From Verrucomicrobiota bacterium (lineage in GTDB: Bacteria > Verrucomicrobiota > Verrucomicrobiia > Limisphaerales > UBA1096), in the NCBI GenBank assembly GCA_014382705.1, contig JACNJE010000090.1, positions 1 through 64,000 on the forward strand: a stretch of 64,000 nt of DNA, written 5' to 3'. A program made the translations under genes and the position numbers. Under the pieces are notes generated by a model. That model was not told where the DNA came from. It worked only from the letters and a program-made list of their open reading frames with translations, and ran no database searches. Below, one piece after another: positions 3,875 to 52,471 of the stretch. Numbering within the stretch: the stretch's first letter is position 1; each line of letters begins with the position of its first letter.

Positions 3875-4495
3875 ATGAAAAAAATGACATACAAGCTGGT
3901 GATGGCTGCCACATGTCTTGGCATGGTGGCAGGTGATGCGATGGCGCAGGAACGCGGCGATCGCGACCGTCCGGAGCGGCCCGACCGCGACCGGCGTGAA
4001 GGTGCCGAGCGCCGTGAAAGGCCCGATGGGGAACGCGCCCGCCGCGATCGTGAACGCCCGGATCAAGGCAACCGTGAACGCTCCAGCCGCAGTTCACGTG
4101 AGCGTGGAGGAGAACGAGGATCAGGCAGGCCACAGTTTGGTGGGCAGGGTGGCCCCGGTGGTTTCATGCGGATGCTCCCGGTGATGGCCGCGCTGGATGC
4201 GGATGGCAACGGCGAGATATCCGCCGAGGAAATCAAGGGTGCCGTCGCCGCCCTCAAAAAGCTGGACAAAAACAAGGATGGCAAACTGACCGAAGACGAA
4301 TTGCGCCCCAGCTTCGGGGGTAGCCGCAGTGGAGGTCGTGGCGGACGCGGCGGTGCCACTGAACGCCGACCCTCCTTTGAGGGGGGGGATCGGCCAAGCC
4401 GCCGTACGGAAGCACGCGGTGATGGCGAGCGTTCGGATCGACGACGTCCCCGCGGCGGTGACGAGCGTCCGGATCGCCCCTCCCGCGAGGAATAG
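3875..4495 (+). CDS. Secreted Arg/Asp-rich EF-hand protein
   Basis: This 206-residue protein starts with a signal peptide (MKKMTYKLVMAATCLGMVAG, cleavage after AMA). A low-complexity Arg/Asp/Glu/Pro segment of RDRPERPDRDRR type follows, then two EF-hand loops (ALDADGNGEISAEE and LDKNKDGKLTEDE), and another Arg/Gly-rich tail. ATG 3875 is preferred over ATG 3863 because it begins the signal peptide directly. It is probably a calcium-binding periplasmic or surface protein. It follows the other EF-hand gene by 16 bp and shares the GTTGTAACTTTT box. No enzymatic domain is visible. Confidence 0.75.
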   Translation: MKKMTYKLVMAATCLGMVAGDAMAQERGDRDRPERPDRDRREGAERRERPDGERARRDRERPDQGNRERSSRSSRERGGERGSGRPQFGGQGGPGGFMRMLPVMAALDADGNGEISAEEIKGAVAALKKLDKNKDGKLTEDELRPSFGGSRSGGRGGRGGATERRPSFEGGDRPSRRTEARGDGERSDRRRPRGGDERPDRPSREE

Positions 4496-4513: not shown

Positions 4514-4550
4514 AACCCGTTGGCCAAGCGCTTGGCCAACGGGTTTTTTT
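4514..4550 (+). terminator. Intrinsic terminator built from two back-to-back TTGGCCAA palindromes
   Basis: AACCCGTTGGCCAAGC is followed at once by its exact reverse complement, giving a 32-bp perfect palindrome at 4514-4545, and the run continues with T residues to 4550. The T-tract is on the plus strand, so it would end transcription of the EF-hand gene that stops at 4495. A further iterated-palindrome copy follows at 4561. Confidence 0.8.
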
Positions 4551-4576
4551 CGAGTCCGGCTTGGCCAAGCGCTTGG

Positions 4577-5686
4577 CTACCACACCTCGACGGGGCCCTT
4601 GGGCACCGGGATGGCTTTGCGCTTGGCCACGGCCGGTTCGTCGTCCTGCATGAACGTCGGCACCATCGGCCCCTGCCGGTAACGCTCGGTGAGTTCCCCG
4701 TCGGCGTCGGCGAATTGCTGCCGCCAGTCGAGGTAGTCGGCCAGCGCCGACTCGAAATCGTCCCGCGTCGAGATCAGTACGACCGCCTTGTTGAACGGTT
4801 TCACCGGCCCGAAGCGCTTGGCGTACCACGGGGCGACCTTGCGGAACATCAGGCAACCGCGCTGCTCGCCGAACACCTCCAGCATCAGGTCGAAGTGCCG
4901 GCGCATCACTCGTACCCGCTCCGCGAACGTCGGCTCCGGCAGCAGTTCGCCGGTCCGCAGGAGGTGTTCCGTGTGCTTGAAAATCCACGGGTTGTAAAAC
5001 GCGCCACGCCCCATGCTCACGCCGTGGCAGCCGGTGGCGTCCATCATGTGCTTCGCCGATTCCGGCGTGGTGATGTCGCCGTTGCCGATGACCGGGATGG
5101 CCCGCGCCGCCTCGACGACTTGGCGGATGCCCGTGAGATTGACTGTACCGGTGAAGCCCTGTTCGCGCGTTCGGCCGTGGATGAAAATAGCCGCCACGCC
5201 GACGTTCTCGAGCACGCGCACCAAGTCGGGTGCGGTGATGTTTTTGTCGTCCCACCCAAGGCGCATTTTGGCGGTGATGGGGATGTTCACCGCATCGACC
5301 ATCCGCTTCACGAGGTGCGCCGTGTCGTCGAGCTCGGTCATCATCGCCGAGCCGCCGCCGGTCTTGCAGACTTTGCGGACGGGGCAGCCCATGTTGATGT
5401 CGATCGAGTCCACGCCGATCGACTCGAGGTACTGCGCCGCATCGCGCATCTCCTCCGGTACTGCGCCGAACAACTGCACCGCGAACGGGCTGTCGGCCTC
5501 GTTGGTCTCGATGAGTTTCAGCGCCTTGGCGTTGCGCTCGAGCAGCGACCGGGCGTTGACGAGGTCGGTTGTGGCGAGGCTCAGGCCGCCCACCTCGCGC
5601 AGCACGAGCCGGAACGGCAGGTTCGTGTACCCGGCCAGCGGCGAGAGAAACAGGTTGGATTTCAGTTGGAGCTGCCCGAATTGCAT
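4577..5686 (-). CDS. dusB: tRNA-dihydrouridine synthase (DusB-like)
   Basis: This 369-residue TIM-barrel flavoprotein opens with FLSPLAGYTNLPFR. It carries the family signature DINMGCPVRKVCKTGGG with the catalytic Cys, an FMN-phosphate region (HGRTREQGFTG), IPVIGNGDI and GVSMGRGAFYNPWIF. It reduces specific uridines in the tRNA D-loop with NADPH via FMN. The subgroup assignment as DusB is by general resemblance. Its 3' end faces the EF-hand gene across the palindromic terminator. The long opposite-strand ORF here is a shadow. Confidence 0.93.
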   Translation of the reverse strand: MQFGQLQLKSNLFLSPLAGYTNLPFRLVLREVGGLSLATTDLVNARSLLERNAKALKLIETNEADSPFAVQLFGAVPEEMRDAAQYLESIGVDSIDINMGCPVRKVCKTGGGSAMMTELDDTAHLVKRMVDAVNIPITAKMRLGWDDKNITAPDLVRVLENVGVAAIFIHGRTREQGFTGTVNLTGIRQVVEAARAIPVIGNGDITTPESAKHMMDATGCHGVSMGRGAFYNPWIFKHTEHLLRTGELLPEPTFAERVRVMRRHFDLMLEVFGEQRGCLMFRKVAPWYAKRFGPVKPFNKAVVLISTRDDFESALADYLDWRQQFADADGELTERYRQGPMVPTFMQDDEPAVAKRKAIPVPKGPVEVW

Positions 5687-14622: not shown

Positions 14623-15945
14623 GTGAAACCGTTTGATTCCATTATCGTGGTTGGTTTGTTGTGCAGCCCCTATCCAGTCAACGCCGAGAGTCCGCTTGTC
14701 GAGGAACTTTCGATCGGGGTGAAAACCCCCCTGAAGGTCCGCTTGGCCAAGCCGCCCCGCGGCTTGGTTGCCGATGCGAAGCTTGGCCTGCTGCGGCATC
14801 GCGTCGTGAACGGCCAGCTGCTGCACACCGCCCGGGAGGGAGTGCGCGGGTTGTTTGAGACGCGCGGTGTCCGCACCCCGAAAGGCGATTTGCTGCTGAT
14901 GTTTCCGGAGGGCAACCATTATGCCGCCGGTAGTGGGAAGGTGAATGACATGATCGCCTATCGCTCCAGCGACAACGGTAAAACGTGGCAAGGCCCGTCC
15001 ATCGCGTTTGACATCGATTACAGTCAGCACGGGTTCATCCCGCTGATCCCCCGTGGCGGCAACCGCATTTACGCCTTTGGCACGCAGCCGATTCCCAGCA
15101 AATACAGCCGGGAAAAGGGGAGGCATGAAAACACGCCGATTGGTTTTCGTTGGTCGGACGATGACGGCCACACGTGGAGCAAGGCCACACAGATCAGGCC
15201 GACGAACGATCCCGGCTTCCTCGGCATGTCGGTCACGCGGATGTGCGAGACCGATTCCGGGGCTTGGGTGATCGGCTCGCACGCGGCGGATTGGTCCAAG
15301 AATCCGCTCATCACGCAGCAGTACATTTTGCGCAGCGAGGACAAGGGCAAGTCGTGGACGTTGCTGCCGGGTAAACGGCCCGGTGGATGGTTCTCCCCGA
15401 AGTACAGCCGGATGGATGAAGGGCGGCCCATTTCGCTCGGCAACGGTGAGGTTTATTTCATGGCGAGGACGCCCACCGGCCGCATCTGGGAGGCGCGCAG
15501 CATCGACGAAGGCAAAACGTGGAGCGATCCAAAGCCATCGCCGCTGGTTCATCCCGACGCGCCGCCGATGGTCTTCCACTTGAGCGATGGCAAGACGCTG
15601 ATCGCGTTCCACCACAACCGGCACATCAACACGCAGTACGTCGGCCTGACCGGCAAGATGGACGGCATGCGTGACCGGGCGGAGATTTGGATTTCGTTGT
15701 CCAAGGACGGCGGACGGAACTGGAGTGAGCCGCGGTTTCTCTTCACCAACGCCACCCGCCCCAACCCGGCAAAGAACGGCTGGTTCAACCACAACTCATC
15801 CTACTTGGATGCCGTGATCGACGACGGCACCATTCACCTGTTCCTGCCGCACCTTTGGAATCGCGCCGTGTATATGCGTCTTGAGGAGAAGGACTTGGCC
15901 AAGCTGCCGACCGTCCAGCAATTGGCCAAGCGCTTGGCCAAGTGA
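14623..15945 (+). CDS. Exported BNR/Asp-box sialidase-like protein
   Basis: This 440-residue protein starts at GTG 14623, which gives a signal peptide (KPFDSIIVVGLLCSPYPVNA). Five Asp-box motifs mark a six-bladed propeller: SSDNGKTW, SDDDGHTW, SEDKGKSW, SIDEGKTW and SKDGGRNW. The family includes exo-sialidases and other secreted glycosidases. Catalytic residues were not assigned, so the exact substrate is open. The gene ends inside two tandem TTGGCCAA palindromes, so the last residues read QLAKRLAK before the stop. It converges with the membrane protein at 15951. Confidence 0.82.
   Translation: MKPFDSIIVVGLLCSPYPVNAESPLVEELSIGVKTPLKVRLAKPPRGLVADAKLGLLRHRVVNGQLLHTAREGVRGLFETRGVRTPKGDLLLMFPEGNHYAAGSGKVNDMIAYRSSDNGKTWQGPSIAFDIDYSQHGFIPLIPRGGNRIYAFGTQPIPSKYSREKGRHENTPIGFRWSDDDGHTWSKATQIRPTNDPGFLGMSVTRMCETDSGAWVIGSHAADWSKNPLITQQYILRSEDKGKSWTLLPGKRPGGWFSPKYSRMDEGRPISLGNGEVYFMARTPTGRIWEARSIDEGKTWSDPKPSPLVHPDAPPMVFHLSDGKTLIAFHHNRHINTQYVGLTGKMDGMRDRAEIWISLSKDGGRNWSEPRFLFTNATRPNPAKNGWFNHNSSYLDAVIDDGTIHLFLPHLWNRAVYMRLEEKDLAKLPTVQQLAKRLAK
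15922..15942. repeat. Tandem pair of the TTGGCCAA iterated palindrome at a gene end
   Basis: TTGGCCAAGCGCTTGGCCAA forms the last sense codons of the sialidase gene and is followed by TGA. It shows the palindrome pair supplying a C-terminal tail, and it lies between two convergent genes. Confidence 0.85.
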
Positions 15946-26384: not shown

Positions 26385-26406
26385 GCCAAGCGCTTGGCCA
26401 AGCGGG
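26385..26406. repeat. Palindrome pair between RND gene end and sulfatase start
   Basis: GCCAAGCGCTTGGCCAAGCG fills the short gap between the efflux permease stop and the sulfatase start. It has the same head-to-tail spacing as the other pairs. Confidence 0.75.
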
Positions 26407-33028: not shown

Positions 33029-33049
33029 GCTTGGCCAAGCGCTTGGCCG
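33029..33049. repeat. Palindrome pair upstream of the DUF1080 gene
   Basis: GCTTGGCCAAGCGCTTGGCC lies about 20 bp upstream of the DUF1080 start codon, in the tetR/DUF1080 divergent gap. It has the same spacing as other pairs but no T-run. Confidence 0.7.
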
Positions 33050-48691: not shown

Positions 48692-49312
48692 ATGGACACC
48701 GCCAAAGCCATTCGCCACCTTAAAAAAGTCGATCCCGACTTGGACAGGGTCATCCGGCACATTGGCCCGAGCGATCTCAAGCCGGACAAGAGCCGCACGA
48801 TATACGCCTCACTCGTCCGCTCGATCGTGTACCAGCAACTCACCGGCAAAGTGGCGGCGATCATCTTCGGCCGGTTTCTTGAGCTGTTCCCTGGCCGGAA
48901 ATTCCCCGAACCGGAGAGGGTGTTGCGAAAGCCGTTCGAGCAATTGCGCGGCGTCGGGCTTTCCAACCAAAAAGCCAGCTACATTCGCAACATCGCCCAA
49001 GCGGCGAATGACGGCATTGTGCCGGACTCGCGCCGGGCCAACCGCATGAGCGACGACGAGTTGATCGAGCAACTGACCTCCATCAAGGGTGTTGGCCGAT
49101 GGACAGTCGAGATGCTGCTCATCTTCCGGCTGGGCCGGCCCGACGTGCTGCCGGCGACTGATTACGGTGTCCAGAAAGGCTTCGCCTTGGCCAAGCGCTT
49201 GGCCGAACTCCCCAAGCCGAAAGAACTGCTCGCTGCCGGCGAACGGTGGGCACCGTACCGCACCACCGCCGCTTGGTACCTCTGGCGCACCACTGACACC
49301 GCTACGCCTTAA
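48692..49312 (+). CDS. DNA-3-methyladenine glycosylase (AlkA/HhH-GPD family)
   Basis: This 206-residue protein starts at ATG 48692 (DTAKAIRHLKKVDPDLDRVI). It has the HhH motif LTSIKGVGRWTVEMLLIF followed by the catalytic Asp in LPATDYGVQKGF. It removes alkylated purines in base excision repair. The N-terminal TBP-like domain of E. coli AlkA is absent, as in many short homologues. A palindrome pair encodes ALAKRLAELP. The gene ends against a 16-bp palindrome shared with the MFS gene end. Confidence 0.9.
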   Translation: MDTAKAIRHLKKVDPDLDRVIRHIGPSDLKPDKSRTIYASLVRSIVYQQLTGKVAAIIFGRFLELFPGRKFPEPERVLRKPFEQLRGVGLSNQKASYIRNIAQAANDGIVPDSRRANRMSDDELIEQLTSIKGVGRWTVEMLLIFRLGRPDVLPATDYGVQKGFALAKRLAELPKPKELLAAGERWAPYRTTAAWYLWRTTDTATP

Positions 49313-49328
49313 AGCCAAGCGCTTGGCT
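49313..49328. repeat. Palindrome half-pair between converging alkA-like and MFS genes
   Basis: AGCCAAGCGCTTGGCT is a perfect 16-bp palindrome. It is the centre of a TTGGCCAAGCGCTTGGCCAA pair with shortened ends. It overlaps the MFS stop codon. Confidence 0.7.
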
Positions 49329-50583
49329 ACTCGCTGATCTCCTCGGTCACGGCTTGGGTGGGGTGATTTTCCCGGGTCTGTTTGATGGTCGGGATCAGCA
49401 GGAGGGCGGAGAGGAGGATCAACCCGCCGCTGATCTGGCTCAGGCTGCTAACGGCTAGGCCGGAGGCCAGAACGCTGAAGCCGATCACCGGAGCGAGCAC
49501 GCCCCGGACGCCGGTGAAAAAGGTGTGTACTGACATATAGTCGGCCACGCGGTTGGGCGGCGCGAGCTTGGTCACCCACAGGCCCCACGCGATGTCGCCG
49601 CCGGCGTGCGCGATGCCGAAGCAGATTTGCCCGGCCACCATGCCGGCCATCGTGTCGCTGTTGAAGAAGATGAGGATCCCCGCCGCGAAAAACAAGTTCA
49701 GCACGGCGCGAAGCAGGAAGATGTTGATCCGGTCGAACATCCATCCCCAGAACGGGTTGAGCAGGAGCCGGAACACATTCGGGATGACCAGCGTAAGCGC
49801 GGCGATGACGAACTCGCTTTTTTCCAGGCCGTAAACCGGGTTGGCCAGGTAGTCGACCCGGATCGGGATCATCATCAGGTTCCCGAAGCCCATCATCATC
49901 CAGCAGATCAGCGCGTGCCGGAAGAGCCGGTCGCTCCGCGCGAAGCGCAGCGCCCGGAACGGATGCCCGCCGGCGTCGCCCTCGAGCGGCCGGGACGGCA
50001 GTTGTCTCAAGCAATGCCACGACCCCAGGAACGCGAGGCCGAAGATCACCAGCAGCCAGCGGTAGCTGCCCAGGCTGGCCTGCCCGTCGGCGCCGGTTTG
50101 GGTGAGCACCCACCCGGCGAGAAAGCTGAACACCCCGGCGGCGAGCACCCGGAACGACACCGCCCGCGCAAAATAATGCCCGCGCCTGGCGTCGGGATAA
50201 TTGTCGCGGAACACCTGCGTGAGCAGCGGGATCGCGCCGGTCGAGCACGACATCGCCACGATGCTCCCGACGGCGAACAACGGCAGCCACGGCACGGCGG
50301 CCATCAGGAAAAACAACGCCGCGCCGAGCAGCGCCATGCGGGCGGCCGCGGTGGCGGCGGGAAGTCCGCGCGACTGGACCACGGTGACGACCACCGGCGT
50401 GAGCAGCAGGCCCACACTGGCGGCGGTTGCGACCAGCGCCTTGCCCACCAGCCCCGTCTCCCCAAACCCCTTGACCACGGTCAGCAGGAGGAACGTGGTG
50501 CCGGCGGTCTCGAGAATGCCGTTGCTGATGGCCCGGCGCTGCTCGAGTTTGAAGGTGGCTTGGGTCCGCTCGGCAAGATTCAT
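49327..50583 (-). CDS. Major facilitator superfamily transporter
   Basis: This 418-residue protein has about 11-12 hydrophobic helices (ALVATAASVGLLLTPVVVTV, MALLGAALFFLMAAVPWLPL, and so on). The inter-domain loop GWMFDRINIFLLR resembles the MFS motif A region. It has no fused domains. The substrate is unknown. The N-terminus is cytoplasmic (NLAERTQATFKLEQRRAISN), consistent with MFS. It faces der divergently across 94 bp, so the two may share a promoter region. Confidence 0.84.
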   Translation of the reverse strand: MNLAERTQATFKLEQRRAISNGILETAGTTFLLLTVVKGFGETGLVGKALVATAASVGLLLTPVVVTVVQSRGLPAATAAARMALLGAALFFLMAAVPWLPLFAVGSIVAMSCSTGAIPLLTQVFRDNYPDARRGHYFARAVSFRVLAAGVFSFLAGWVLTQTGADGQASLGSYRWLLVIFGLAFLGSWHCLRQLPSRPLEGDAGGHPFRALRFARSDRLFRHALICWMMMGFGNLMMIPIRVDYLANPVYGLEKSEFVIAALTLVIPNVFRLLLNPFWGWMFDRINIFLLRAVLNLFFAAGILIFFNSDTMAGMVAGQICFGIAHAGGDIAWGLWVTKLAPPNRVADYMSVHTFFTGVRGVLAPVIGFSVLASGLAVSSLSQISGGLILLSALLLIPTIKQTRENHPTQAVTEEISE

Positions 50584-52337: not shown

Positions 52338-52471
52338 GGGAGGGGCGAGTTCCACCTCGCCCCAAATCCCCTGTCAAACAAACATGGATGAACAGGGTGG
52401 ACGGGAATGGTTTTGTGCTGCCTGTGCAGCAACTTTGGTTATTTTGGGGCAAGGTGGAACTTGCCCCTCCC
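52338..52471. repeat. Structured intergenic element with 26-bp inverted arms
   Basis: GGGAGGGGCGAGTTCCACCT (continuing CGCCCC, 52338-52363) pairs with GGGGCAAGGTGGAACTTGCC (continuing CCTCCC, 52446-52471) with two mismatches over 26 bp. Each arm is itself a small hairpin, and inner hairpins (CCCTGT/ACAGGG, GCTGC-CTGT-GCAGC) are present. Size and design resemble the element at 23218-23408. It lies between the converging der and TPR genes. No protein is encoded there. Confidence 0.6.

Follow-up and report, generated by a model that had tools for sequence, protein, structure and literature searches.

The perfect palindrome and T-run that lie behind an EF-hand protein gene at positions 4514–4550 very probably constitute an ordinary intrinsic (Rho-independent) terminator of that gene, judging from the predicted fold and from comparison with related genomes, and the apex of its hairpin would be formed by two overlapping copies of a palindromic motif, TTGGCCAA, that is iterated throughout the genome. 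For nearly all the remaining copies of this motif, doubled ones included, nothing points to a role as a stop signal. The window (the whole stretch of 64,000 nucleotides analyzed here) represents contig C79 of a 4.0-Mb metagenome-assembled genome (G000, ~91% complete) from a marine lineage of Verrucomicrobiota; the nearest relatives of its dusB gene carry the labels Verrucomicrobiales, Limisphaerales, or Pedosphaeraceae.

The original prediction, a perfect 32-bp palindrome containing two TTGGCCAA copies and followed by a T-run after the EF-hand gene, proved exact in every element (Table 1). The palindrome is laid out as AACCCG-TTGGCCAA-GCGC-TTGGCCAA-CGGGTT (in full, AACCCGTTGGCCAAGCGCTTGGCCAACGGGTT). 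It begins 18 nt past the EF-hand stop codon, within the convergent gap ahead of dusB, and the window holds no second palindrome that reaches 24 bp. Genes were called with a simple hexamer-based caller, which was checked against obvious genes only.

Table 1. Features at and around the predicted terminator, and the second exact motif pair of the window.
Feature	Position	Strand	Basis or remark
EF-hand protein gene, 206 aa; transcript predicted to be ended by the terminator	3875..4495	+	Gene call; Pfam EF-hand_5, E 5.4e-10
Predicted terminator hairpin: perfect 32-bp palindrome, 14-bp RNA stem, GCGC loop	4514..4545	+	Stem conserved in 12 orthologues
TTGGCCAA, copy 1 of pair	4520..4527	.	Motif count in window
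TTGGCCAA, copy 2 of pair, 12 bp from copy 1, GCGC common to both	4532..4539	.	
Seven-T run, U-tract of the predicted terminator; its first two T are also base-paired within the stem	4544..4550	+	
Third motif copy and partial pair, overlapping the dusB TAG stop (TAGCCAAGCGCTTGGCCAA on the minus strand)	4561..4579	.	Minus strand without T-run
dusB, tRNA dihydrouridine synthase, convergent neighbor	4577..5686	-	NCBIfam TIGR00737, above cut-off
Sole other exact pair in the window	15922..15941	.	Within the 3'-terminal coding part of gene 14623–15945; without T-run

Folded as RNA, the 4514–4550 segment reached approximately −24.7 kcal/mol, better than 200 of 200 shuffled sequences, and it places a stable G+C-rich hairpin immediately ahead of a T-run on the sense strand. 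A consensus terminator scan, whose total hits were not above shuffle expectation, recovered exactly this interval. The structure recurs at the same gene end in 12 aligned orthologues from the genus, where changes in the stem are compensated: 96.2% of the pair cells are standard, and five pairs have changed on both sides. The covariation score of these 12 related sequences, counted on a structure taken from the window's own sequence, was 0.272; shuffles gave 0.137, and sliding gave no more than 0.113. Chance juxtaposition of the iterated motif and a T tract would have the sheer commonness of the motif in its favor, but it is extremely improbable for a structure that 12 orthologues retain through compensatory changes and a changed apex.

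The apex is the part that varies. Six genomes (G000, G004, G011, G012, G015, and G018) carry the EF-hand gene followed by CC(C/T)G-TTGGCCAAGC(G/A)CTTGGCCAA-CGGG and a T-run, and other members of the genus (G002, G006, G008, G010, G013, G014, G016, and G020) have another hairpin at the equivalent place, for example ATCCCGCTGGCCTTGGCCTGCGGGAT followed by T7. Those poorer in the 14-bp motif core described below (G002, G006, G010, G014, and G020) retain CCCG..CGGG plus T7 around a non-motif apex. On this comparison, the motif pair is one of several apices used by the conserved, predicted terminator. The variants in G018 and G011, where loops read GCAC and a U-G pair occurs, leave the RNA hairpin intact while the DNA palindrome is broken, which points to selection acting at the RNA level. 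A hairpin with a T-run was sought just after dusB in the two AT-rich relatives G001 and G005 and was not found, which means that not every member of the genus has the terminator. We also sought the ancestral apex with a dusB tree, which was weak and gave no answer. In G004 and G015 (L093, L098), an additional stretch of ~200 bp that includes a GGGAGAGG-type inverted repeat lies between the dusB stop and the conserved terminator.

In the mechanism that we propose, the nascent RNA would fold into the 14-bp hairpin, RNA polymerase would pause on the U-tract downstream, and the transcript would be released, at an end predicted from the sequence, before running antisense into dusB. The apical stem consists of two overlapping copies of a palindrome that is specific to the genus and highly iterated (core CGCTTGGCCAAGCG), and this repeat would readily supply stem material because it is self-complementary and grows in 12-bp steps. 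The CCCG/CGGG base and the T-run, rather than the motif, would be what turns the copy at 4514 into a terminator. As to the order of events, we infer that the motif either entered an existing terminator or was lost from it in some lineages.

The motif itself is strikingly abundant, with 82 copies of TTGGCCAA in the window versus 1.4 expected and 4314 (about 4,300) in its own genome, at a density of 10.9 per 10 kb. Together with its flanking bases it makes up the 14-bp core, CGCTTGGCCAAGCG. This genome has 1,167 exact copies of the core, 20 congeners have between 1 and 1,174, and 37 genomes of the order's other families have 0–8. TTGGCCAA stands at about the level of the reversed control in those families and still at 4.5–5 times that control in the poorest congeners; the palindrome is confined to this genus. 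We found no description of it in the literature, where open-access publications were covered. Motif copies at 12-bp spacing occur nine times against 0.76 expected. At one orthologous stop codon, this genome has a pair and G012 a single copy, 12 bp shorter, which suggests that pairs are probably gained when the repeat expands by 12 bp or lost when it contracts.

Intergenic copies concentrate just behind genes. The first 20 nt past stop codons hold 7.95, 8.04, and 3.01 TTGGCCAA per kb in G000, G012, and G014, respectively (genomes other than our own being sampled by their first contigs, not random ones), versus about 0–4 per kb farther from stops or upstream of starts (Fisher p = 1.6e-12, 9e-8, and 5e-5, with intergenic totals rounded). 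In all three genomes, this 0–20 nt palindrome peak is without T-runs. It may reflect simple tolerance, a role of RNA hairpins at 3' ends, or the way in which an uptake signal tends to be placed. TAG codons acting as near-matches to the motif were rejected as its source, explaining a handful of cases; the peak spans genes ending in TGA, TAA, and TAG, at varied offsets. Strict orthologous conservation was rejected as well: 4 of 12 post-stop motifs are common to G000 and G012, a share above chance (p = 0.0016), and the motifs turn over.

The geometry of the 4514 pair had first been read as recurring at 15922, 23188, 26385, 33029, and 49313. An exact TTGGCCAAGCGCTTGGCCAA is present at 15922, and the other four sites depart from the 20-mer pair, by one mismatch (23186), two (33031), three (26382), and more than three (49313); pairs with up to three mismatches total 13 in the window versus 0.01 expected. 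That such sites lie mostly at gene ends fits the window only loosely. The pair at 15922 is coding, read in frame as ...QLAKRLAK* with the stop ending at 15945, the site at 26385 lies between co-directional genes, and that at 33029 between divergent ones; genome-wide, the motif does peak just past stop codons. At 49310–49329, the space that separates the stops of two convergent genes is taken up by a palindrome, AGCCAAGCGCTTGGCT, which also overlaps the TAG that ends the minus-strand gene. The window also contains, at 52342–52364 (+) and 52446 (−), members of another dispersed hairpin family, GGGAGGGGC(A/G)AGTTCCACCT(T/C)GCCCC, which is represented at least 15 times in a 646-kb genome sample (further copies at L035:10834, L040:2152/2190, L083:7058/7096 and 15038/15076, and others). 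Several of these copies form inverted pairs ~40–100 bp apart, and the family resembles REP/BIME elements.

Motif pairs could form a general class of terminators, like inverted DUS/USS pairs, with the T-run dispensable or replaced by another signal, and the placement of the motif lends this some appeal: it reaches ~8 per kb in the 20 nt after stops versus ~2 per kb elsewhere in intergenic DNA in two motif-rich genomes, a third genome shows an equal density shape at a lower level, and half of the convergent gaps of 20–50 nt contain it. We nevertheless consider such a class very unlikely and rejected it on T-runs, location, and share of terminators. Defining a pair as two overlapping palindromes 12 bp apart with GCGC common to both, we examined 51 distinct exact pairs of the 58 in the genome, and a T-run accompanies one of them, namely that at 4520. 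Twenty-nine are intragenic and 22 intergenic (43%), a share not significantly above that of the long single copies (about 56 of 172 single 14-mers, the count of singles being approximate; p = 0.18), and the proposed excess of pairs between genes over those inside them did not emerge. T-runs beside intergenic motifs (3 of 250, 2 of 142, and 1 of 78 sides in G000, G012, and G014) were not above the background of 2.2–2.6%. A T6 within 6 nt of the motif occurs at 10 sites in the whole 4.0-Mb genome, about two of which are terminator-like; besides 4514, this is a site in C127, where CCCCGCTTGGCCAAGCGGGG plus T6 lies 12 nt past a stop codon. Intrinsic termination as such appears to be in use in this genome, since strict terminators in the 646-kb sample, chosen without regard to pairs, number 37 in sense and 16 in antisense by an identical rule. 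TTGGCCAA lies inside one of the 37, and in five a motif copy lies past the stop codon but upstream of a distinct hairpin, indicating that motif and hairpin are separate things. The analogy drawn with the inverted pairs of Neisseria and Haemophilus thus did not carry over to pairs as a class, and the terminator reading held for 4514–4550, where the fold, the orthologues, and the compensatory changes support it.

What the iterated palindrome represents is a separate matter. It is plausible, though we stop short of favoring it outright, that the palindrome is a DNA uptake-type signal gathering in tolerant places just past stops and occasionally recruited into terminators. Its density is of the order of that of known USS/DUS, and it has the hundreds to thousands of clade-specific copies that mark uptake sequences, restricted to one genus and far above the reversed control; methyltransferases of the families PF00145, PF02086, and PF01555 are nearly absent. 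The competence genes comEC or dprA were detected in 13 of 17 motif-rich versus 0 of 4 motif-poor congeners (p = 0.012, from incomplete genomes that share ancestry, with the rich/poor line drawn post hoc), while a recA control had no significant bias between the two groups. This confinement of comEC/dprA to motif-rich members makes an uptake-sequence-like role possible, but known USS/DUS are not palindromic, and the association comes from incomplete, related assemblies. We know of no palindromic uptake sequence. A fuller scenario, in which members of the genus would rely on a self-palindromic DNA uptake sequence placed preferentially post-stop and occasionally recruited by 12-bp expansion into intrinsic terminators, with lineages that have lost comEC/dprA now losing it, is possible but on the doubtful side; if true, this would be, to our knowledge, the first self-palindromic uptake sequence and the first uptake sequence in Verrucomicrobiota.

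A HIP1-like origin, in which methylation-linked repair would generate the palindrome and the copies at gene ends would have no function, strikes us as unlikely. The motif is an overrepresented GC-rich palindrome found ~once per kb both inside and outside coding DNA, like the cyanobacterial HIPs, whose model links such palindromes to methyltransferases (PMC4390886). However, a methyltransferase matching the palindrome or its core was not found among the three Pfam families searched in 21 genomes (PF02086 in none, PF01555 in none, PF00145 in one), and the sharp 0–20 nt post-stop peak is not predicted by the repair model. The single C5 DNA methyltransferase among these genomes (G000:C53:508-1560, L117) is likely a strain-specific acquisition and, present in G000 only, was rejected as the driver of the motif. 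Both the uptake-type and the HIP1-like readings are compatible with an intrinsic terminator at 4514–4550.

Followed across one genus, 4514–4550 suggests that an iterated repeat can occupy the stem of a terminator that is itself conserved. Of greater importance is the wider pattern: a palindrome, found throughout the genus, that lacks the expected methyltransferases, sits post-stop, and tracks comEC/dprA. The question of what highly iterated palindromes do becomes testable outside cyanobacteria.

Set against known systems, the 4514–4550 element is like other intrinsic terminators in its G+C-rich hairpin, the T-run directly behind it, and its short distance past a stop codon, and unlike them in that its apical stem consists of two copies of a genome-wide iterated palindrome. 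With the DUS/USS terminators of Neisseria and Pasteurellaceae it shares an abundant genomic repeat that forms the terminator stem (PMC1852404). The uptake sequence is contained in 54–57% of terminators in Neisseria and 17–29% in most Pasteurellaceae, and Neisseria USS hairpin pairs are almost never intragenic (PMC1852404), whereas the repeat described here is itself palindromic, its pairs overlap, it lies in 1 of 37 terminators, most of its pairs are intragenic, and their flanks supply no A/T tails; the large terminator share and the intergenic, T-tailed pairs of the USS/DUS class are thus lacking. The motif also resembles HIP1 and the alternate cyanobacterial HIPs, which are short G+C-rich palindromes found about once per kb in genic and intergenic DNA (PMC4390886). 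It differs from them in the near absence of the tested methyltransferase families, in its longer, 14-bp core, in the phylum that carries it, and in its strong post-stop peak.
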